A program made the translations under genes and the position numbers. From assembly GCA_947630535.1 (NCBI GenBank), contig CANRHZ010000003.1, forward strand, positions 1 to 64,000: a stretch of 64,000 bases of DNA, given 5' to 3'. The DNA is from Candidatus Gastranaerophilales bacterium. GTDB lineage: Bacteria > Cyanobacteriota > Vampirovibrionia > Gastranaerophilales > Gastranaerophilaceae. Below the pieces are notes generated by a model. The model saw nothing but the letters and a program-made list of their open reading frames with translations. It did not search any database and was not told where the DNA came from. This document shows, piece after piece, positions 1,100-19,633 of the stretch. Every line of letters begins with the position of its first letter. The first letter of the stretch is position 1.

Positions 1100-3556
1100 A
1101 TGCAGGTTTCATACGAATGGCTAAATGAATACGTTGATATAGAAGGAATAACCCCTGATGAAATTGCTAATAAACTTACTATGAGCGGGCTTGAAGTTGA
1201 AGAAATTGAAGAAGTAAAACCCAAATTCACAAACATAATAACGGTTAAAATTGAAAAAATAGATAATCACCCCAATGCGGATAAATTACACCTTGTAACC
1301 GTAAATACAGGCTCTGAAACAAAAACGGTTGTTTGCGGAGCACAAAATATTGAAGTCGGACAAATTGTCCCATATGCTTCCGTTGGCTCATTTGTTCTTG
1401 ACAGAAAAACAAAAGAACAGTTTCAATTAACCCCTGCTATTATAAGGGGGGTTGAATCTCAAGGGATGCTATGCTCGGAAGATGAACTCGGGCTTTGTGA
1501 TATGCAAAAAGAAAGCGGGATTTTAATTTTAAACAGGCTTTTAAAAGATATAAAATTAGGGGAAAAACTTGAAAAAGTTTTAAACATAAATGATGAAATA
1601 ATTTTCCATACCGCACCCACCGCAAACAGGGGGGATGAAATGTCTGTAATAGGCATTGCAAGGGAAATTTCCGCACTGTTTAACAGAAAAATGAAACTTT
1701 CTTGGATGACCCCTCAAGAGGATAAAAAAGCGGATTTTAAGGTTGAAATAAAAAATGATGAGGTTTGTAAATACTATTCAATAGGGGTGCTAAAAGATAT
1801 AACAATTAAACCCGCCCCCGAATTCATACAAAGAAGGGTTATTGCGGGTGGAATGCGCCCGATTAATAACGTTGTGGATATTACAAACTACGTTATGCTT
1901 GAATATGGAACCCCCTTACATGCGTTTGATTATGACAAATTAAATAAATATCTCTGTGTAAGGTATGCAAAAGAAGGGGAAAAAATTACAACCCTTGATG
2001 GAGTTGAGCGTACCATGACAGATAAAACCGTTGTAATTTCAAAAGAAGATGAAGCGGTTTGCCTTGCGGGAGTTTTTGGGGGGAACAATTCCGAAATTGA
2101 TGAAAATTCAAAAAATTTAGCCCTTGAAGCTGCATACTTTACCCCGCACACAAACAGAAAATCTGCCCGTTCAATCGGGTACCGTTCAGAGGCATCAGCA
2201 AGGTTTGAAAGAGGGGTTGATATTGCCCTTGTTAAACAAGGTCTTTATCAGGCTATTAACCTTTTAATTAAGTATGCGAATGCAAAATTTGAAGGAATAC
2301 AAGAAACAGGTAAAGATGAACTTGAACCAATTCATATAACCTTAAGAAATTCTGAAATAAAAAGAATTTTGGGTTCTGAAATTGAGCAAAATAAATGTAT
2401 TGAAATATTGGAAAATTTGGGCTTTAAGCTTTTAGGAAAAAACGAATCCGCACAAAAATTTGAAGTTCCAAGTTACAGAATGGTTGATGTCTATAGAGAA
2501 ATAGACTTAATTGAAGAAGTTTCAAGAATAGACGGATATGAAAAAATTGCTCCTACACTGCCTAAAATATCTGAAGGAGCGGAAATTTCAAACCAAACAA
2601 GAACAATAAAAGAAATTAACGAGCTTTTCTTGGGGCTCGGGTTCTGTGAAATTGTTACAACTTCACTTGTCGGAAATTCTTTTGTGGCAGAATATTTAAG
2701 CGAATTTATCGAACAGGAAAGAGTGGATGTTATAAACCCTCAATCTGAAGATGCAACAACCTTAAGACAGGAACTTATGCCCAATTTGTTATCGGTTGTA
2801 AAAAACAACTATGACAACGGAAATAAAAATTTCAAACTTTATGAAATTGGCAAAACCTTTCATTCTAAAGAAAAACCAACGGAAGATTTTTCGGGCGTTG
2901 TTGAAACGAGAAAAATTTCAGGATGTATATTCGGACACACAAATAATGACTGTTGGAACAAAAAACAAAATCCCGATTTTTATGAAATTAAAGGTGTTTT
3001 AGAAAATATGTTCGAAAAATTAAACCTATCAAAAAGAATAGTATTTTCACCCTTGAAAGAAAATAAGAAATTTATGCATCCTTATCAAACGGCAACAATT
3101 GAACTTTTGGGGAAAAATCCTATTAATCTCGGATATGTGGGAAAAATTCATCCCGTTTTAGCAGACAAACTAAAATTCAATCAGGACTTATTTGTTTTTG
3201 AAATAAATTTAAGCGCAATCTTGGACAACATAAACGAAAAAGCACCAACCAAATATAAAAAGCTCCCAAATTCAATCCCCGTTATAAGGGACATTGCTTT
3301 CAAACTCGATGATGGTGTAAGTTATGAAACCGTTATGAAAACAATTAAAAAAGTAAGCAACAAAAATATATTCAAGGGTGCAAGCCTTTTTGATGTTTAT
3401 AAGGGCGAAAACATAGGCGAAAACAAAAAATCCATGGCATTCAGAATAACCCTTCAGGATGAAACTAAAACCCTAGTTGATAGTGAGATTGACTTTGAAA
3501 TAAATAAAATAAAAGAGGGGCTTGAAAAAAATATTAAGGGTCTTATGTTAAGATAA
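1100..3556 (+). CDS. pheT: Phenylalanyl-tRNA synthetase beta subunit
   Basis: The beta chain of the alpha2-beta2 enzyme that charges tRNA-Phe in the cytoplasm. The 818-residue length is typical. It starts MQVSYEWLNEYVDI, the usual PheT N-terminus. An EMAP-like tRNA-binding domain (about 40-150, with NHPNADKLHL and VVCGAQN) follows, then a B3/B4 editing domain (about 200-370), a B5 domain (about 400-475) and a C-terminal FDX-ACB anticodon-binding domain (about 720-815, with RDIAF and SLFDVYKG). A purine-rich ribosome site (GAGGAAAAAAGGA) precedes the ATG. The partner pheS is not adjacent in this window, whereas in many bacteria pheS-pheT are contiguous; the upstream gene here runs the other way. 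Confidence 0.97.
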   Translation: MQVSYEWLNEYVDIEGITPDEIANKLTMSGLEVEEIEEVKPKFTNIITVKIEKIDNHPNADKLHLVTVNTGSETKTVVCGAQNIEVGQIVPYASVGSFVLDRKTKEQFQLTPAIIRGVESQGMLCSEDELGLCDMQKESGILILNRLLKDIKLGEKLEKVLNINDEIIFHTAPTANRGDEMSVIGIAREISALFNRKMKLSWMTPQEDKKADFKVEIKNDEVCKYYSIGVLKDITIKPAPEFIQRRVIAGGMRPINNVVDITNYVMLEYGTPLHAFDYDKLNKYLCVRYAKEGEKITTLDGVERTMTDKTVVISKEDEAVCLAGVFGGNNSEIDENSKNLALEAAYFTPHTNRKSARSIGYRSEASARFERGVDIALVKQGLYQAINLLIKYANAKFEGIQETGKDELEPIHITLRNSEIKRILGSEIEQNKCIEILENLGFKLLGKNESAQKFEVPSYRMVDVYREIDLIEEVSRIDGYEKIAPTLPKISEGAEISNQTRTIKEINELFLGLGFCEIVTTSLVGNSFVAEYLSEFIEQERVDVINPQSEDATTLRQELMPNLLSVVKNNYDNGNKNFKLYEIGKTFHSKEKPTEDFSGVVETRKISGCIFGHTNNDCWNKKQNPDFYEIKGVLENMFEKLNLSKRIVFSPLKENKKFMHPYQTATIELLGKNPINLGYVGKIHPVLADKLKFNQDLFVFEINLSAILDNINEKAPTKYKKLPNSIPVIRDIAFKLDDGVSYETVMKTIKKVSNKNIFKGASLFDVYKGENIGENKKSMAFRITLQDETKTLVDSEIDFEINKIKEGLEKNIKGLMLR

Positions 3557-11590: not shown

Positions 11591-12706
11591 TTATTTAAAA
11601 GCGGTTTTAACTTTTTCCATTATACCGTTTTTTTCGGTTTTTTTTGAAAGTTCAAAAAGTTGTCTGTATAACTTTTCTTCTTCACCTGAAAGTTTTTTTG
11701 GTGTGTTAATTTTAATTGTAACATAATGGTTGCCCCTTTGTCCTTCCTTACCAAGATATGGGACACCCTTCCCTTTTATTAAAACCTTTTCAAGATTTTC
11801 TATCCCTTGCGGAATGTGAATTTTTTCTTCTCCGTCTACGGTTTTAACAATAACTTCGTCACCCAAAACGGCTTGCGGCATTGATATTTCAAGAACTGTA
11901 TGAATATCAACCCCATCCCTTATAAATTCTTTTGAGTCTTTAACATATAAAACAATATATAAATCTCCCTTTCGTCCCCCGTTTTTGCCGGCATTTCCTT
12001 CATTTGCAAGACGAATTCTGGAACCTGAATCTACACCTTTAGGAATTCTTATTTTTACTGTTTTTTCTTTATGGATTGTCCCTGTACCTTTACATTTTTT
12101 GCAATTTGAAGATGGGTCAATACCGCTTCCGTTACAATCGGGGCAGGTTGTAACCGAAGTAAAACTTCCCAAAATAGTTCTTGTATTTTGTTGAATTCTT
12201 CCCATCCCCCTGCAAGTTTTACATGCGGTTTCTTTTGCGTTTTTATCTTTGCCTGTGCCATGGCACTCATCACATTCTTCAAGGTGATTAATTTTTATTT
12301 CTTTTTCAACCCCGAAAATCGCATCCATAAAATCAATTTTCATATCCATTCTTAAGTTATCGCCTTCAATAGGCGCATTCGGGTCATGACGGCTTGAAAA
12401 TCCGCCGCCCATCCCCTGGCCAAAAAATGCTTCAAATATATCGTTTATTCCTCCAAACCCAAAATCAAAAGGCCCCTGACTGTATCCCGCATTTTTAAGT
12501 CCGTCCTCTCCGTATCTGTCATAAAGAGCTCTCTTTTCATCATCGGATAGGGTTTCATAAGCCTTCCCCAGTTCCTTAAATCTTTCTTCCGCATCAGGTG
12601 CCTTATTAACGTCGGGGTGAAGTTGTCTTGCTTTTTTTCTGAATGCGGATTTTATTTCATCTTTTGTGGCATTTTTTTCCACCCCTAATATTTCATAGTA
12701 ATCCAT
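11591..12706 (-). CDS. dnaJ: Chaperone protein DnaJ
   Basis: Hsp40 co-chaperone that stimulates DnaK ATPase. The 371 residues show full type I architecture. The J domain carries HPD at 30-32, followed by a Gly/Phe-rich linker (about 75-115). Four zinc motifs follow (CDECHGTG, CKTCRGMG, CPDCNGSG, CKKCKGTG), then the C-terminal substrate-binding domains. Its ATG overlaps the grpE stop by one base (TAATG), giving translational coupling. dnaK is not in this window, although grpE-dnaK-dnaJ is the commoner order. Confidence 0.97.
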   Translation of the reverse strand: MDYYEILGVEKNATKDEIKSAFRKKARQLHPDVNKAPDAEERFKELGKAYETLSDDEKRALYDRYGEDGLKNAGYSQGPFDFGFGGINDIFEAFFGQGMGGGFSSRHDPNAPIEGDNLRMDMKIDFMDAIFGVEKEIKINHLEECDECHGTGKDKNAKETACKTCRGMGRIQQNTRTILGSFTSVTTCPDCNGSGIDPSSNCKKCKGTGTIHKEKTVKIRIPKGVDSGSRIRLANEGNAGKNGGRKGDLYIVLYVKDSKEFIRDGVDIHTVLEISMPQAVLGDEVIVKTVDGEEKIHIPQGIENLEKVLIKGKGVPYLGKEGQRGNHYVTIKINTPKKLSGEEEKLYRQLFELSKKTEKNGIMEKVKTAFK

Positions 12707-13275
12707 TAATTATCCTCGGTCTTTTCAGTTGCAACATTAACCATTACGGGTCTTAATACTTTATCATGAAGCTTATATCCTGTTTGGAGCTCTTTAATTA
12801 CCGTATGGGGTTCAAATTCGTCGGTCGGAGTTTGCATAACAGCTTCCATTATGTTGGGGTCAAACTCTTTACCTTGGGCTTCAATTTTTGTTAATCCGAT
12901 TTTTGCTAAAACATCATTTAACTGTTTTATACAAACATCATAACTTTCTTTTATTGAATTTACATCCTCGATTTTTTCAATTGATGCTAATGCACGCTCA
13001 AATGTATCAAGGACGGGAATAATCTTTTTTAAGGTATCTTCCGCCCCGTATTTAATAAGACTTTCTCTCTCTTGCATCTGACGTTTTCTATAGTTATCAA
13101 AATCAGCTGCAAGCCTTATATATTTGTTGTTAATATCTTCGATTTCTTTTTTGAGTTCTTCTTTTTCATCAACCGTTTTTTCGGTTTGTTCTTCTTTAGT
13201 TTCTTTTTCTTCTTTTATTTCTTCTTTTGCTTCAGCCTGTGCAAAAGGGTTTGTTGTGTTTTCATTATCCGACAT
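12706..13275 (-). CDS. grpE: Nucleotide exchange factor GrpE
   Basis: Releases ADP from DnaK. The 189-residue protein has an acidic, Glu/Lys-rich disordered N-terminus (about 1-50) and a long coiled coil (ELKKEIEDINNKYIRLAADFDNYRKR at about 44-69). The C-terminal beta domain ends with GYKLHDKVLRPVMVNV, the family signature. It has a good Shine-Dalgarno (AGGAG) and a TATAAT box about 44 bases upstream. I see no CIRCE inverted repeat in the upstream region, so HrcA control is not supported here. Confidence 0.96.
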   Translation of the reverse strand: MSDNENTTNPFAQAEAKEEIKEEKETKEEQTEKTVDEKEELKKEIEDINNKYIRLAADFDNYRKRQMQERESLIKYGAEDTLKKIIPVLDTFERALASIEKIEDVNSIKESYDVCIKQLNDVLAKIGLTKIEAQGKEFDPNIMEAVMQTPTDEFEPHTVIKELQTGYKLHDKVLRPVMVNVATEKTEDN

Positions 13276-13324: not shown

Positions 13325-13411
13325 GAATAAGAAAAATCTTTTGCCATATTAATTAATGATTTATTAATATTTAATTTTGTAAATATTTGTAACAAAAAAT
13401 ATATGTTTAAT

Positions 13412-13473
13412 TTAAGTTTTTGGGCTTAAATGCCGACATGGTACATGTAAAGAACTTAAGGGGGTAAAATCCA
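13412..13473 (+). promoter_or_regulatory. Structured 5' leader of the MGFAASQARF gene
   Basis: TTAAGTTTTT (13412-13421) can pair with AAGAACTTAA (13450-13459) with one T-G pair, enclosing a hairpin ACATG-GTA-CATGT (13436-13448). The Shine-Dalgarno GGGGG (13460-13464) abuts the outer stem, nine bases before the ATG. Folding could therefore expose or hide the ribosome site. No known riboswitch or leader family is recognised. The rest of the gap, 13325-13411, is plain AT-rich sequence. Confidence 0.4.
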
Positions 13474-14169
13474 ATGGGATTTGCAGCAAGTCAAGCAAGA
13501 TTTTTGTCTTTGACATCAAGATTGTCTGATATCGAATACGAAGCGCAGCAAATTTCACAAGAAAGGCTTGCACTCAACAATCAAATGGAATTGTATGCTG
13601 ATGAATATGAGAATGCAACCACGAATGAAACGCTTGTTGCAAGGGTTTATGACCTTCAAGGCAGCGTATCGGAAGTTACCCTTGATTATAATGTTATAAT
13701 AGGCGACCCGCTTGATGGCGGATTGGGAATGAATCTTGTAACATCAAACGGACAAATTGTTGTTCCTGATGAAGCAGAAATGCAGCGTCAGATTGAAAAA
13801 TCGGGAAACCAATTAAAAATTGAAGATTTCTATATTTTTGAACAGGTAAAACAAACCGACGTATTACAAAAAAATATATTGGATGGCAACTTTTATTTTG
13901 CGGCATCAAGAGATGATAAAACAGGCGAATGGGATAAAAAAACGGTAGGACACATTGATACCGTAAGAAGAACATGGGACAGAGCCGATGATGCGGCGGC
14001 AAAAGCAAAATATGATAAAAGAATGAATACGGCAGAAAAGAAAGATGCAATGTTTGAAATGAGGTTGGAACAATTGGACACACAACATAAAGCAATCGAA
14101 ACAGAAATGGAATCTGTTCAAAAACTCGTTGATGATAGTGTTGAAAATACGTTTAAGACATTTGGCTAA
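13474..14169 (+). CDS. Unknown protein with MGFAASQARF N-terminus
   Basis: A 231-residue protein I cannot assign to a named function. The N-terminal 60 residues (MGFAASQARFLSLTSRLSD, then a long amphipathic helix) match a pattern I associate with proteins of gut cyanobacterial relatives, but this is recall rather than a search. The middle (about 60-165) is mixed alpha/beta with many acidic residues. The C-terminal 70 residues are highly charged and probably coiled coil (EMRLEQLDTQHKAIETEME). There is no classical signal peptide or membrane helix. The strong ribosome site and separate terminator suggest a well-expressed single-gene unit. The helical ends with a variable middle are reminiscent of filament or secreted structural proteins, which is speculation. 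Confidence 0.8.
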   Translation: MGFAASQARFLSLTSRLSDIEYEAQQISQERLALNNQMELYADEYENATTNETLVARVYDLQGSVSEVTLDYNVIIGDPLDGGLGMNLVTSNGQIVVPDEAEMQRQIEKSGNQLKIEDFYIFEQVKQTDVLQKNILDGNFYFAASRDDKTGEWDKKTVGHIDTVRRTWDRADDAAAKAKYDKRMNTAEKKDAMFEMRLEQLDTQHKAIETEMESVQKLVDDSVENTFKTFG

Positions 14170-14191
14170 AATGTCTATTTCATAAAATATA

Positions 14192-14223
14192 AAAAGGAGA
14201 AAATGAATTCATTTTCTCCTTTT
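14192..14223. terminator. Perfect 16-base inverted repeat, bidirectional terminator
   Basis: A perfect palindrome of two 16-base arms centred on GAATTC (14205-14210), with A-rich and T-rich edges. It can act as a terminator for both the MGFAASQARF gene and the converging YihY gene, whose stop is six bases away. The absence of a spacer between the arms is unusual; in RNA the central 4-6 bases would form the loop. Confidence 0.7.
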
Positions 14224-14229
14224 CGTGTA

Positions 14230-15075
14230 TTATTTTGTTCTTTTTTCAACCAGTTTATCCAAAGTATGCCCGTTTATTTCTCCGCCGATAAGCATAATAA
14301 CCGATGTGTAATAGAGCCAAACCATTAAAATGGCAAAAACTCCGATTGTTCCATATACTTTATTGTATGTGCCCAATTTGTTTATGTATAAAGAAAAAAG
14401 CCACGAACCGAGCAACCAGAATATACAAAAGAATAAAGACCCGGGGACCACACTTCTTTTGATGGAAAATTGTTTGGAAGGAAGCACATAGTAATTAACC
14501 GCAGCAAGTAAAAAAAGCATAACAAAAGCAAGCGGCCATCTTGTAATCAGCATTGCGTTTGTAATTTCATTTGAAAGATGAAAATAAAACTGTAAAAAGC
14601 CTATAATAACTTTACCAAAAATTACAAGGTTGACACTGATAAAAAGCAAAAAAGCGTTTAAAAAAACCATTGCTATGGCAAGAAGTCTTGTTTGAATAAA
14701 GGGTCTGTCCTCTTTCACTTTGTTTGCACGATTTAAACCTTTGATAATTACCGCTATTGCGTTTGAAGCCAATATTAAGGTAACTATAAATCCGAATGCC
14801 GCAACAATTCCGCCGTTTTGAAAAAGAGTAACTTCCCTTAAAACACCCGTTATAAGTTGAATAACTCCTTCCGGTGCAACGGTTGACAGGGCAGCTATAA
14901 TTTTTGTTACAAATATCTTTTTCCCAAGCCAGCCAAACACGGCAGTTAAAAATAACATGAAAGGAAATATGCCTATCGCAAGCATATATGCCATTTCAGC
15001 GGCAGCATTACCGAAATCCTCGCTTATGATTGTTGATATTAGGGTTAGAATATACTCTTTAATCAATTTAAACAT
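14230..15075 (-). CDS. YihY/BrkB family inner-membrane protein
   Basis: 281 residues with about six membrane segments in the YihY/BrkB pattern. The N-terminus is cytoplasmic with the AAAEMAYMLAIGIFPFMLFL motif region (about 24-43). Later helices lie at about 90-110, 135-160, 180-200, 220-240 and 245-265, the last including GVFAILMVWLYYTSVIMLIG. The family was once annotated as ribonuclease BN, which is now considered wrong; transport or lipid-related roles have been suggested but not settled. The gene overlaps the 3' end of the nrnA-like gene by 13 bases and so is probably translated from the same mRNA. Confidence 0.88.
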   Translation of the reverse strand: MFKLIKEYILTLISTIISEDFGNAAAEMAYMLAIGIFPFMLFLTAVFGWLGKKIFVTKIIAALSTVAPEGVIQLITGVLREVTLFQNGGIVAAFGFIVTLILASNAIAVIIKGLNRANKVKEDRPFIQTRLLAIAMVFLNAFLLFISVNLVIFGKVIIGFLQFYFHLSNEITNAMLITRWPLAFVMLFLLAAVNYYVLPSKQFSIKRSVVPGSLFFCIFWLLGSWLFSLYINKLGTYNKVYGTIGVFAILMVWLYYTSVIMLIGGEINGHTLDKLVEKRTK

Positions 15076-16217: not shown

Positions 16218-17075
16218 ATGAGCTTAATAAATAATAAAAAATCACTTATAGCGGCTTTTGTGGCGGGTGCATTTGTGTTTATTATTTTTGGCTCAATTAC
16301 ACTTAAAACAACTCCGACAACAAAAACATCTTCTAATCCCTCATACCAGTACGTTGTTGCAAACAAAGAAATTAAAAAGGGCGATATCATAAAAGAAGAA
16401 GATGTTAAAATACAGGACTTTGTAATTGATATAGAGGGAGCACAAAAAGCAACGGGAGAAGTTGTCGGCAGAAAAGCGGCAACGGATATAGTCCCGCAAA
16501 AACCTATAATGAAAAGTTTTGTCGAAGAAATTAAAGTGGAAGAAAAACCGGATGCAATTGCACTGGAACCAAAAAAAGGGTTTAGGGCAATTCCTGTTTT
16601 GATAAAAAAATCTTCAATCCCTCCTTATCTTAAGGTGGGGTCTGTTTTTGATCTTTATACAAAAGAAAATTCAATGAAAATAGAAAATTTAAAAATTTTA
16701 AATGTTTTGGATGCCCCTAGAGATGAGGGCAACAAAATGCTTATTGTGGAAATAAAAAACGGGGACATTCCTATTTTTATAGAAAGTTTGCGCTCTACAA
16801 AGGGTCTTATTCTGCTCCAAAAAAATATTAGTGATATGGGAGAATACAGATTTTATAGTACCCTTGGGGGAACACCCATACTAAAAGCTTCAAACCAAAT
16901 TAAAAAACAGACTTCGGATAATATGGAAGTTTTGCCTCCCATAAGTCAGATAGACAAAAATATTGTTGATATCTCAAACAATGAAAAACAAACAACAAAA
17001 AGCAATAATAACGAGTATAATGAAGTAGAGATAATCGTCGGAAACAATAAATCAAAGGTGGAATTTACAGAGTAG
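16218..17075 (+). CDS. cpaB: Flp/Tad pilus assembly protein CpaB (RcpC)
   Basis: 285 residues. An N-terminal membrane segment (about 9-28) is followed by a SAF domain (YVVANKEIKKGDIIKEEDV, about 45-63) and the conserved VVGRKAATDIVPQKPI segment (about 82-97). The rest is the RcpC/CpaB periplasmic domain, with a Ser/Asn/Lys-rich tail. In Tad systems CpaB sits in the periplasm with the secretin and stabilises the outer-membrane channel. It is the first gene of the operon, directly abutting cpaC (stop TAG then ATG). Confidence 0.88.
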   Translation: MSLINNKKSLIAAFVAGAFVFIIFGSITLKTTPTTKTSSNPSYQYVVANKEIKKGDIIKEEDVKIQDFVIDIEGAQKATGEVVGRKAATDIVPQKPIMKSFVEEIKVEEKPDAIALEPKKGFRAIPVLIKKSSIPPYLKVGSVFDLYTKENSMKIENLKILNVLDAPRDEGNKMLIVEIKNGDIPIFIESLRSTKGLILLQKNISDMGEYRFYSTLGGTPILKASNQIKKQTSDNMEVLPPISQIDKNIVDISNNEKQTTKSNNNEYNEVEIIVGNNKSKVEFTE

Positions 17076-18413
17076 ATGAGAAAAATATATAAAAAATTAA
17101 TAATATTTTTAATGTTTGTCTTTATTATGCCTGCACTTTGCGCAGACTTTAGAGAAGTAAATTCTAATCCTTTTGAAGATGATATTCTAAATGAAAAAAA
17201 TCAAAACATAAACTATGCATCAAAGCTTCAAGCCTCTTTTGAAACCGTTAATGCCATAAAAGACAACAACCAAAAACTGTATGGTGTGGTCGGGAAATCT
17301 CAGGTATTGAATTTTGATAAAAATATAAAGAGAGTTTCAATAACGGACGATAAAGTTGCGGACATTGTAGTTTTATCTCCTAAACAACTTTTAATTAACG
17401 GTAAATCGCCCGGAACCACAAGCATGATTTTCTGGTCAAAGGAAAATGAATCTCCGGTTTTTTATAACCTTATAATTCAACAAAACACAGACCCTTTTAT
17501 TCAGGCGGTAGAACACGTTGCACCAAATGAAAACATTTCAATTATCTTTAATGATACGGGTGCCGTCATAACAGGTCATATAAGTTCAACCGCCGTTAAA
17601 GAAAAAATTACAAATCTTGCTAAAGCTTATAATTTAAATCTTGTTGATATGACAGAAAGCCCCGCAAAACAGGTTCTTTTGGAAGTCAAAATAACGGAAG
17701 CAAGTAAAAATTTTGCAAGAACATTAGGGTTAAACCTTGTTGCGGGGAAACACATGGACGTAACGGATTTTCATGCAGGACAGTGGGGGCCTAACGGTCA
17801 TGGAACAAGCGGAAAAGCAAGTATAATCCAAACGGGTGAAGGGCTTGTTATAGGTTATTGGAAGGGCGGCAAACTGGGTGTCGATTTTGAAGCAAGTGAA
17901 GCAAAGGGAGATATCAAAATTTTAGCCGAACCTAAACTTTTATCCGTTAACGGAGAAGAAGGAAGCTTTACTGTCGGTAATCAAGTCCCCGTTCCTTCAG
18001 GAGTCGGAAACTACGGAAATGTTTCATATGATTACAAAGATACGGGTGTTATCTTGAAATTTACCCCTACAATTATGGAAGAATCGGGAAGAATCAGGCT
18101 GAATTTACAACCTGAAGTATCTGAGGTGGACAATTCGGTTTCTGTTACCTCGGCTAACGGGGCAGAAGTATACGGATTTAGAACAAGAAAAGTTGAAACA
18201 ACCGTTGAACTTATGGACGGTGAAACACTTATAATAGCAGGGCTAAATAGAAATTCATCTTCAAGAAGCAGGACACAGGTTCCTATTCTTGGTAATATAC
18301 CTGTTTTAGGAGCACTGTTTTCAGTGACCGATGATGAAAGAACGGATGATGAACTTGTTATATTCATCACTCCAAGAATTGTAGATAACTCAAAAAATGT
18401 AGAAAACTTATAA
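17076..18413 (+). CDS. cpaC: Flp/Tad pilus secretin CpaC (RcpA)
   Basis: The outer-membrane channel of the Tad pilus. The 445-residue protein has a signal peptide (about 1-22, MRKIYKKLIIFLMFVFIMPA). Its N-terminal BON/N0-like domain begins GVVGKSQVLNFDKNIKRVSI at about 69, and a pilus secretin domain covers about 200-440. Typical secretin blocks are visible: ILAEPKLLSVNGEEGSF, VGNQVPVP, VILKFTPTI, and the C-terminal VPILGNIPVLGALF. The presence of a secretin implies an outer membrane, so the host is diderm. Confidence 0.92.
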   Translation: MRKIYKKLIIFLMFVFIMPALCADFREVNSNPFEDDILNEKNQNINYASKLQASFETVNAIKDNNQKLYGVVGKSQVLNFDKNIKRVSITDDKVADIVVLSPKQLLINGKSPGTTSMIFWSKENESPVFYNLIIQQNTDPFIQAVEHVAPNENISIIFNDTGAVITGHISSTAVKEKITNLAKAYNLNLVDMTESPAKQVLLEVKITEASKNFARTLGLNLVAGKHMDVTDFHAGQWGPNGHGTSGKASIIQTGEGLVIGYWKGGKLGVDFEASEAKGDIKILAEPKLLSVNGEEGSFTVGNQVPVPSGVGNYGNVSYDYKDTGVILKFTPTIMEESGRIRLNLQPEVSEVDNSVSVTSANGAEVYGFRTRKVETTVELMDGETLIIAGLNRNSSSRSRTQVPILGNIPVLGALFSVTDDERTDDELVIFITPRIVDNSKNVENL

Positions 18414-18415
18414 TT

Positions 18416-19633
18416 ATGGCACCAAAAATAGACACAGTAATAATAGATTTTGAACAGACCTCAAGAGAAATTATGATTAACTTTCTTGAAAAGGTCGAGG
18501 ACATAAATTTGGTTCAACAGTTTAGCGATATTCTTGCCGCACAAGATTATATAACGGAAAATAAACCCCCGCTTGTGATAGTTGATATTTCAAAACAAAC
18601 AGGTCTTTCCCTCGATATAATTTCAAAACTAACTTCAAGTGTTAAAAACATAAAAATTATTGTATTAACTTATGACACCGATTCAAACATAGTAATTAAA
18701 TCTTTAAGGGCCGGGGCAAGGGAGTTTTTAATAAAACCTTTAATAGAACAGGATTTTATTCAGGCCGTTGAAAAAATGAAAGACCTTATTTTAGGCAATA
18801 TTAATGACACAACCAGATGTAAGGTAATAACAACATTTTCAAACAAAGGCGGAATAGGGAAAACTTCTCTTGCGGTTAATCTTGCAATGGAAATTGCAAA
18901 CCTCACAAAAGAAAAGGTTGCGCTTGTTGACCTTAATATGCAAATGGGCGATATTACAACATTTTTAAATATAGAGCCTTCGTTTGATACATCTTATGTT
19001 ATTAACAATATGGACAGGATAGATGAAACTTTCCTTTTAACAACACTCGAACAGTATAATAAAACAAGCTTGTATGTTCTTGCCGACCCGCCCGATATTG
19101 AACAGGCAGAAATTATTACAAGTGAAGATATAACAACCCTCATTAATATTTTGAGAAACGTATTTTCGTATATAATTATTGATACAACATCAAGCTTTGA
19201 TTCAAAAACCATAACCGCACTTGATAATTCGGATTTAATTTTGCTTGTATCCATAATTAATCTTCCTTCAATCAGAAACTGTCAGAGATGTTTTGAATTG
19301 TTCAAAAAATTGGGCTATTCCAAAGATAAAATAAAACTTGTTATAAATCGTTATATGGAAGCAGACGATATAAAAATTGAAGATGTTGAAGAAGTTTTAG
19401 ACCATAAAGTCTTTTTCAAAATTCCAAACAACTATTACACAATTATAAGTTCAATAAATAAAGGTGTTCCTGTATCAGATGCGGCACCAAATTCCAACAT
19501 TTGCAAAAGTTTTAAACAGATGGCCGCACTTGTATCCGACAGTTATTCATACAATAAAAACGGAAATCATACGGTACAAAGAGAATATGGCTTCAATTTC
19601 TTAAACCTATTTAAGAAAAATAAAGGAGAATAA
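18416..19633 (+). CDS. cpaE: Pilus assembly ATPase CpaE/TadZ
   Basis: Places Tad pili at the cell pole in studied systems. The 405 residues comprise a receiver-like domain (about 5-125, with a candidate phospho-acceptor Asp57 in VIVDIS and Lys107 in FLIKP) and a MinD/ParA-type ATPase. The ATPase has a deviant Walker A, KGGIGKTS (144-151), then VALVDLNMQMGDI, and a final helix. CpaE receiver domains are often degenerate; here the Asp and Lys are retained, but the usual N-terminal acidic pair is VIIDFEQ, so phosphorylation is uncertain. The gene starts two bases after cpaC stops. Confidence 0.9.
   Translation: MAPKIDTVIIDFEQTSREIMINFLEKVEDINLVQQFSDILAAQDYITENKPPLVIVDISKQTGLSLDIISKLTSSVKNIKIIVLTYDTDSNIVIKSLRAGAREFLIKPLIEQDFIQAVEKMKDLILGNINDTTRCKVITTFSNKGGIGKTSLAVNLAMEIANLTKEKVALVDLNMQMGDITTFLNIEPSFDTSYVINNMDRIDETFLLTTLEQYNKTSLYVLADPPDIEQAEIITSEDITTLINILRNVFSYIIIDTTSSFDSKTITALDNSDLILLVSIINLPSIRNCQRCFELFKKLGYSKDKIKLVINRYMEADDIKIEDVEEVLDHKVFFKIPNNYYTIISSINKGVPVSDAAPNSNICKSFKQMAALVSDSYSYNKNGNHTVQREYGFNFLNLFKKNKGE

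Follow-up and report, generated by a model that had tools for sequence, protein, structure and literature searches.

An unnamed protein family with constant ends and variable inserts as candidate substrate of a flagellum-derived export system in Gastranaerophilales

Partial flagellar gene sets in gut Gastranaerophilales have so far been read as motility, as motility loss or as ongoing genome reduction, at least in the passages of the literature drawn on here: Melainabacteria are described as normally flagellated (PMC7018530), flagellar loss has been inferred within the order (PMC4451040), partial flagellar sets have met with conflicting views on motility (PMC5877343), and genome reduction in progress was proposed for MEL.A1 (PMC3787301). 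A further paper (PMC3459982) proposes that secretion became the task of flagellar type III systems several times, with Buchnera as an example. Here, we describe a gene at positions 13474-14169 of a 64,000-nucleotide (nt) stretch of a Candidatus Gastranaerophilales bacterium (assembly GCA_947630535.1, contig CANRHZ010000003.1, positions 1 to 64,000; "the window" below). The gene is neither an isolated orphan nor controlled from an RNA leader but belongs to an unnamed, widespread protein family, and its product is probably a late substrate, of the sigma-28 class, for a type III secretion system (T3SS) that derives from the flagellum but is without flagellin. A flagellum-type promoter and the tracking of the family with an export machine in genomes where no flagellin was found suggest that its product is probably exported. 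For the partial flagellar sets, our results suggest a third answer, namely a separate export system that 94 of 95 genomes retain and to which a distinct promoter class and a large family of candidate substrates belong. We found no curated model for this family, and the open-licence PMC papers searched yielded no earlier account of it or of a separate export system. Genomes, contigs and loci carry our own G, C and L labels.

Architecture and distribution of the protein family

The reading frame starting with MGFAASQARF is intact (231 codons) and, as the initial annotation of the window had claimed, its product matches no family that could be named, with 0 models at Pfam or NCBIfam cut-offs, a best PHROGs match of E 0.38 and weak PADLOC matches at most. 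The three homologues in one of the sequence collections searched came from two Candidatus Gastranaerophilales metagenome-assembled genomes (MAGs) and one "Cyanobacteria bacterium" MAG. The gene had also been called free-standing, which is right, but it is not alone: the same genome holds at least four members including the window gene, and the family was matched in 97 of 97 genomes searched of the same taxonomic family. A search for paralogues sharing the N-terminus, which the annotation had proposed, found three clear ones in the window's genome, a tandem pair on contig C13 (432 and 369 residues) and one on C21 (289 residues), and these match the window protein solely over the first 38-67 and last 47-68 residues.

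Family proteins begin with a MGxxASQARxLxLTAR helix and close with a helix that finishes near FKTFG/A. Their N-terminus is the best conserved part, in line with the earlier impression from the window protein alone, and M1, G2, S6, Q7, L11 and T14 are invariant across 30 aligned members. The two ends of longer members align separately, with frames of fewer than 200 to 1,133 residues among the matches listed, some of them cut by contig ends. N- and C-module profiles built from 21 seeds match the same 64 open reading frame (ORF) rows (repeats from overlapping loci counted), with a weak C-module match away from the protein end in L030, which is cut by a contig end. The 55 distinct members are 192-698 amino acids (aa) long and carry inserts of 107-589 residues over the minimal form described below (leaving out contig-cut L030 with its 192 aa). 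Some genomes have at least 16 N-module matches, and the lengths of the inserts differ greatly. Pfam matches of 43 members are weak and spread over different families (best E 3.5e-4). For WXG/LXG, Pfam gave no match to the window protein and a weak LXG one to a single paralogue (E 0.019, 15.3 against a cut-off of 26.5), flagellin models gave 0 matches among the 43 members at E 0.01 and none for the window protein among its Pfam matches to E 10, and a PDB sequence search with the family returned coiled coils and G-alpha noise.

AlphaFold2 models of the window protein (four-sequence alignment as input, five models) agree with the helical ends that had been anticipated, at least in the best model, where helices are predicted for residues 3-49 and 173-230 around a mixed middle (mean predicted local distance difference test score, pLDDT, 86.7, compared to 62.7-81.7 for the other four; predicted template modelling score 0.56); the mean pLDDT for a 555-aa family member is low (42.8). 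Foldseek gave a best E of 0.15 with the window-protein model, and VIA-align matches range over coiled coils of many sorts, including V-ATPase, SMC and PI3K chains as well as two flagellins, 8jmv (Z 8.7) and 6xl0 (Z 8.5), which are not diagnostic according to the tool's own note. The family has no signal-peptide-like segment, as judged from hydropathy rather than a dedicated predictor: over the first 40 residues, the 12-residue hydropathy of 55 members peaks at 1.27 or less, compared to 1.85-3.35 in six Sec-like proteins chosen by eye.

A minimal form is found in another order, that of genome G375, where the N-module occurs in 18 of 18 genomes in frames of 81 to 181 residues. The nine ORFs read in eight of these loci are all 109 aa long except for one cut by a contig end, which has 102. 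Profile comparison aligns residues 1-41 of this minimal form with the N-module (E 3e-19) and residues 60-109 with the C-module (E 1e-25). Because the 109-aa form consists of the two modules without an insert, the large members look like a hairpin whose turn was opened to take in different domains. A 107-aa relative without insert is encoded beside the C13 tandem in the window's own genome (phmmer E 4e-7 to a family member). PDB sequences matching the 109-aa profile to E 10 are mostly unrelated coiled coils, with IpaB at E 3.3 and no needle protein among them, and a WXG motif is present in neither the window protein nor the 109-aa members.

Several further observations concern relatives and neighbors of the family. 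Two tandem 161-aa proteins (MGWAALSLRKM/MGWVTLSLRKM; L060:5383-6402, minus strand) have weak C-module matches (E 1e-6 and 6e-5) and are perhaps a more distant branch. A 270-aa Gly/Ser-rich ORF with hydrophobic stretches and no Pfam match to E 0.1 separates the tandem long members from the 107-aa relative (L058:12265-13077). Proteins at L073:9941-10999, L084:11326-12011 and L128:16548-17264 (all minus strand) share an N-terminal NxxFKA/SFxG-like motif, possibly another export mark, and have no evident signal peptide by eye. No viral contig was found with the window protein itself; the minimal form as query gave seven predicted provirus contigs of IMG/VR (L179-L185, match at 3001) with a family member of 565-773 aa where complete, each carrying a 13-16/16 sigma-28-type site. 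A gene that we take to encode a terminase and a small gene precede the family member on six of these contigs (three near-identical), and a secA-like gene follows it on L184. Either prophages insert beside family genes or they carry family genes as cargo.

The export machine and its co-distribution with the family

Genes of the machine were searched one by one, using rod profile, flagellin, FliP and FHIPEP (FlhA/SctV) matches. Of 95 genomes in the taxonomic family, 94 have FHIPEP, and the exception is 63% complete. Contig C19 of the window's genome encodes SLT-FliE-FliF-X-FliH-FlhA in a row, all of which pass Pfam cut-offs except X, a FliG-like protein of 343 aa with no Pfam match at the 0.05 level. 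The order FliE-FliF-X-FliH-FlhA is kept in seven genomes of six genera, in five of them together with SLT. Contig C2 adds FlgC and FlgB, both above the rod-profile cut-off, two FlgF/G-like proteins and an FlhB-like protein whose gene is directly followed by that of a FliA-like sigma factor, and contig C22 adds FliP and a FliMN-type protein. Among PDB entries, flagellar FlhA (2e-122) matches the FlhA sequence of this genome a little better than the injectisome protein LcrD does (1e-114). None of the 14 genomes of the taxonomic family with only this FlhA (assigned by score; the window's genome included) gave a Flagellin_N match, and all 14 keep at least one rod-profile match; Flagellin_N was found in all 7 genomes with a second, higher-scoring FlhA.

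A midpoint-rooted FlhA tree, which covers one outgroup genome and 19 members of the class with 28 rows (26 different) and carries a long-branch warning above all for the outgroup row, resolves three clades with 100/100 support each: a flagellar clade A, clade B with the type of the window's genome, and clade C. The protein family is present in 10 of 10 genomes with clade B and in 0 of 9 with clade C. Clade B stands beside flagellar-clade FlhA and flagellins in genomes G032, G040, G261, G371 and G375. Strong matches to X (1e-60 or better) occur only where the protein family does, in nine genomes of the taxonomic family and order, with 3e-8 in G375 and nothing better than 2e-4 in the other eleven genomes searched. 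All 11 of the family-bearing genomes searched for the FliA-like sigma factor hold an orthologue (59-100% identity), compared to best matches of 26-38% in ten genomes without the family. Across the phylum, the N-module was found in 174 of 386 genomes—170 of the same taxonomic family, 3 of the same order and 1 of another order—and in none of nine other class members or the remaining genomes. This co-distribution shows linkage by lineage, not function.

Partial relatives of FlhA were seen as well. Proteins of ca. 485 aa that match just the C-terminal half of FHIPEP, like a stand-alone FlhA-like cytoplasmic domain, are encoded in 9 of 10 clade-B genomes examined (e.g., L125:5530-6978 on contig C55 of the window's genome, L083:7158-8615 and L084:7646-9094), and L082:7222-9303 encodes a 694-aa fusion of an X-like (FliG-like) part with a C-terminal FlhA part.

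The upstream promoter and the candidate regulon

The sigma-28 consensus is printed as TAAAGTTT-N11-GCCGATAA in the sections of PMC2859248 and PMC7286023 drawn on here. The promoter of the window gene matches 14 of 16 positions of TAAAGTTT/GCCGATAW, with a spacer of 12 compared to the published 11, and from the usual spacing transcription is expected to start near 13446 (Table 1). The -10 element of the window gene, GCCGACAT, is also that of the E. coli aer constructs in PMC2859248. The window gene and its four closest orthologues share an upstream block, TTTAAGTTTTTGG...TGCCGACATG. Scoring the upstream 110 nt by a fixed scheme that allows a spacer of 11 or 12, and taking at least 13/16 as a good site, we find such sites before 41 of 60 distinct family members (61 distinct upstreams, one without upstream DNA left out) and before 7 of 627 other ORFs of the same loci, or 7 of 376 controls whose intergenic space is 60 nt or more (Fisher 1.5e-35, uncorrected for relatedness); as the members are related, these counts are not independent events. 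The spacer is 12 in 35 of the 41 good sites. Among 37 spacer-12 sites, which were aligned on their elements and not on the spacer, the elements hold 0.7-2 bits per position, and 9 of 12 spacer positions hold less than 0.5 bit. Because the motif should not be chosen beforehand, we also counted pairs of 4-mers with gaps of 8-20 (of 851,968 possible pairs, the 246 that occur in 8 or more members were tested), and the top dyad, AAAG-N15-GCCG, occurs before 26 of 60 members and 0 of 627 controls (p 7.9e-31). AAGGAG is likewise enriched upstream of family members (31/60 compared to 46/627).

The 7 control ORFs with good sites include the first genes of the G026 T3SS cluster and of the G375 rod cluster, the latter with a 14/16 site only 6 nt from the start codon taken, as well as two cell-wall hydrolases (CHAP; Amidase_3 with LysM) without evident signal peptide by eye. 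Promoters of T3SS operons are weak, with the SLT operon scoring 12/16 in the window's genome, 13/16 in G026 and 11/16 in G021 and others scoring 10-12. The window's genome contains 21 consensus sites with at most two mismatches, 10 before ORFs, 10 inside ORFs and 1 in neither position. The ten upstream-type sites lie outside ORFs of more than 100 codons (one overlaps a 101-aa opposite frame) with an ORF start 21-64 nt downstream; they precede the window gene, both C13 paralogues, two HD-domain proteins, one MgtE_N protein (both by Pfam), three small unknowns and a gene whose product is presumably, from its sequence, a response regulator with HD-GYP.

The promoter bases of the window gene had been annotated as a structured leader whose hairpin at the ribosome site would control a highly expressed gene, a proposal to which we give next to no credence. 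The window sequence can be drawn with a stem that spans 13411-13460 and has its outer part at GGGGG, but the fold of 13405-13476 (-15.3 kcal/mol) is equalled by 16 of 200 shuffles (z -1.43). The covariation analysis suggested at the time, run on the window gene and its four closest orthologues, gave no covariation in these five sequences: a change on both sides is seen in 1 of 19 pairs, and 106 of 500 shuffles score at least as high. The enclosed ACATG-GTA-CATGT hairpin can also be drawn, yet of its five pairs one forms in a single sequence of the five and another in two. For this alignment, RNAalifold places no pair across the leader stems, and Rfam has nothing at gathering score for the leader. 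With fold, alignment fold, pair counts and Rfam all giving nothing, a leader RNA regulator was rejected. What had been called a structured leader is the -35/-10 promoter pair found before most of the family, and 13412, at which the annotated interval starts, is the first base of this promoter; the 5' arm of the stem coincides with the -35 element and, by the usual spacing, would lie outside the transcript. The palindromic terminator claimed at the other end is real as a palindrome (14-15 bp, scoring as a terminator on both strands), but it sits between convergent genes, reads both ways and lends no support to regulation.

Table 1. Features of the window gene and its flanks (positions in the window).
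Feature	Position	Strand	Basis
Sigma-28/FliA-type promoter TTAAGTTT-N12-GCCGACAT; -35 13412-13419, -10 13432-13439; 34 nt before ATG	13412..13439	+	consensus score
Short 5' untranslated region with Shine-Dalgarno AAGGGGG (GGGGG 13460-13464)	13440..13473	+	sequence
Candidate type III export substrate, 231-aa member of the MGxxASQAR...FKTFG/A family	13474..14169	+	ORF and family searches
Conserved N-terminal helix (predicted), residues 3-49	13480..13620	+	AlphaFold2 model and alignment of 30 members
Variable mixed alpha/beta insert (predicted), residues 52-168; missing from 109-aa members of another order	13627..13977	+	AlphaFold2 model and profile comparisons
Conserved long C-terminal helix (predicted), residues 173-230, ahead of the last residue of ...FKTFG	13990..14163	+	AlphaFold2 model and C-module hidden Markov model
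Palindromic terminator common to the window gene and the convergent gene 14230-15075 (-)	14191..14224		terminator score

We take the upstream neighbor (12706-13275, minus strand) to be GrpE-like and the convergent gene to be YihY-like, both from their translations. A group at 16218-19633 is presumably a Tad/CpaB-CpaC-CpaE pilus cluster, going by its sequence likeness.

Readings of the system and comparison with known systems

The initial annotation had guessed at a lineage-specific structural or secreted protein with strong expression signals. This fits our findings: the family is restricted to the class and has helical ends, it lacks a signal-peptide-like segment, its promoter is of the flagellar type, and it co-occurs with a flagellum-type export machine. 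For the probable late export substrate, we envisage that the FlhB-linked FliA-like sigma factor would recognize the family promoter and that the protein would leave through the FlhA/FlhB/FliP gate and past the rod without a signal peptide. Outside the cell, its N- and C-helices would pack as an antiparallel coiled coil and perhaps stack, with the insert displayed outward like the variable middle of flagellin on its polymerizing ends. Polymerization, a rod cap or release could each follow export. More tentatively, and with less confidence than an even chance, we consider that the machine builds a filament or needle of something other than flagellin, from the 109-aa hairpin in one order and in the gut order from a hairpin with interchangeable inserts that would serve as surface display and would have evolved in parallel to flagellin.

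A number of points weigh against export by this route. Promoter and distribution inform on regulon and lineage rather than on location, and the co-distribution is phylogenetically nested: because clade B, X, the sigma factor and the family lie on the same branches, it may reflect one ancestral event. Upstream regions of 19 of 60 family members score below 13, the 15/16 site of the C21 member sits 191 nt upstream, and the 107-aa relative of the window's genome, the MGW pair and two G040 flagellins score at most 11/16, while the T3SS operon starts of the window's genome reach at most 12/16. Allowing up to three mismatches, the consensus is not enriched genome-wide (120 sites compared to 133 for the reversed control), so that the consensus alone does not define a regulon. 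Family genes are scattered and lie outside T3SS operons in the loci read and therefore have no operon support. Regarding the machine itself, FlhB, FlgC and FlgB fall slightly below NCBIfam cut-offs (338/349, 96/102 and 57/59 bits), and the sigma factor (L123:16947-17624) has FliA_WhiG as its best NCBIfam match at 1.3e-21 with 77 bits compared to a cut-off of 190. The fold matches are generic antiparallel coiled coils, and no sequence relation was found to flagellin (hhalign E 0.15, the 109-aa form with two G040 flagellins) or to FliE (hhalign E 0.51).

The same promoter and distribution evidence would also suit soluble adhesins or effectors exported by the type III system, with the conserved ends acting as export or chaperone signals, a reading that overlaps with the late export substrate on promoter and export and that we regard as unlikely but worth keeping in view. 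It agrees with the N-terminus being the most conserved part and with inserts of 107-589 residues. Type III export signals are usually loose and N-terminal. The last 50 residues of the family are conserved too, unlike such signals, and the 109-aa form has little beyond the two ends. Slightly less probable again, and in our view unlikely, is that the protein belongs to the sigma-28-type regulon but remains cytoplasmic and serves the export machine as scaffold, chaperone or regulator. Sites with at most two mismatches do precede the cytoplasmic-looking HD-domain, MgtE_N and HD-GYP-like proteins, and the model of the window protein shows no more than a generic antiparallel coiled coil into which a domain is inserted, but the 16 or more N-module matches of some genomes with their very unequal inserts are better suited to surface display than to a scaffold. 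A similar promoter is also carried by the CHAP and Amidase_3/LysM hydrolases, so the regulon may hold extracytoplasmic proteins.

That the partial flagellar set is a mere flagellum remnant, with genome reduction under way, would account for flagellin in 0 of the 14 genomes with only this FlhA, but it is very improbable in light of the near-universal retention of FHIPEP (94/95) and the constant FliE-FliF-X-FliH-FlhA order across seven genomes of six genera. Moreover, clade-B FlhA coexists with flagellar-clade FlhA and flagellins in G032, G040, G261, G371 and G375, which argues for a second system rather than a worn-down first one. If the export reading is true, a gut lineage makes variable, possibly surface or secreted proteins that had no name so far, and the flagellin design of constant ends and a variable middle would have a second case without detectable relation to flagellin.

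Among known systems, the WXG100/LXG substrates of type VII secretion resemble the family in a mostly helical minimal form of ca. 100 aa and in the one weak LXG match (E 0.019), but this match is below the Pfam cut-off and the window and 109-aa proteins lack the WXG motif. Type III needles (SctF/PrgI/MxiH) share a small two-helix minimal form (predicted for the family), a conserved C-terminal tail and a type III machine, whereas the machine described here has flagellar rod proteins and the 109-aa profile matched no PDB needle. Flagellin (PF00669/PF00700, class-3 sigma-28) is alike in conserved helical ends, a variable middle, the lack of a signal-peptide-like segment, a sigma-28-type promoter, multiple copies and a flagellar-type export gate in the genome. 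The family differs from flagellin in matching no flagellin model (hhalign E 0.15), in being present where no flagellin was found and in a minimal form of 109 aa that is shorter than the flagellin frames found (at least 274 aa). The filament-less systems of Buchnera, in the part of PMC3459982 considered here, similarly combine basal-body and export-gate genes without a filament and with a proposed use in secretion. Compared to these, the system described here is present in 94 of 95 genomes of a gut lineage, has its own FlhA clade that is able to coexist with a flagellar one, and comes with a candidate substrate family and a promoter class.
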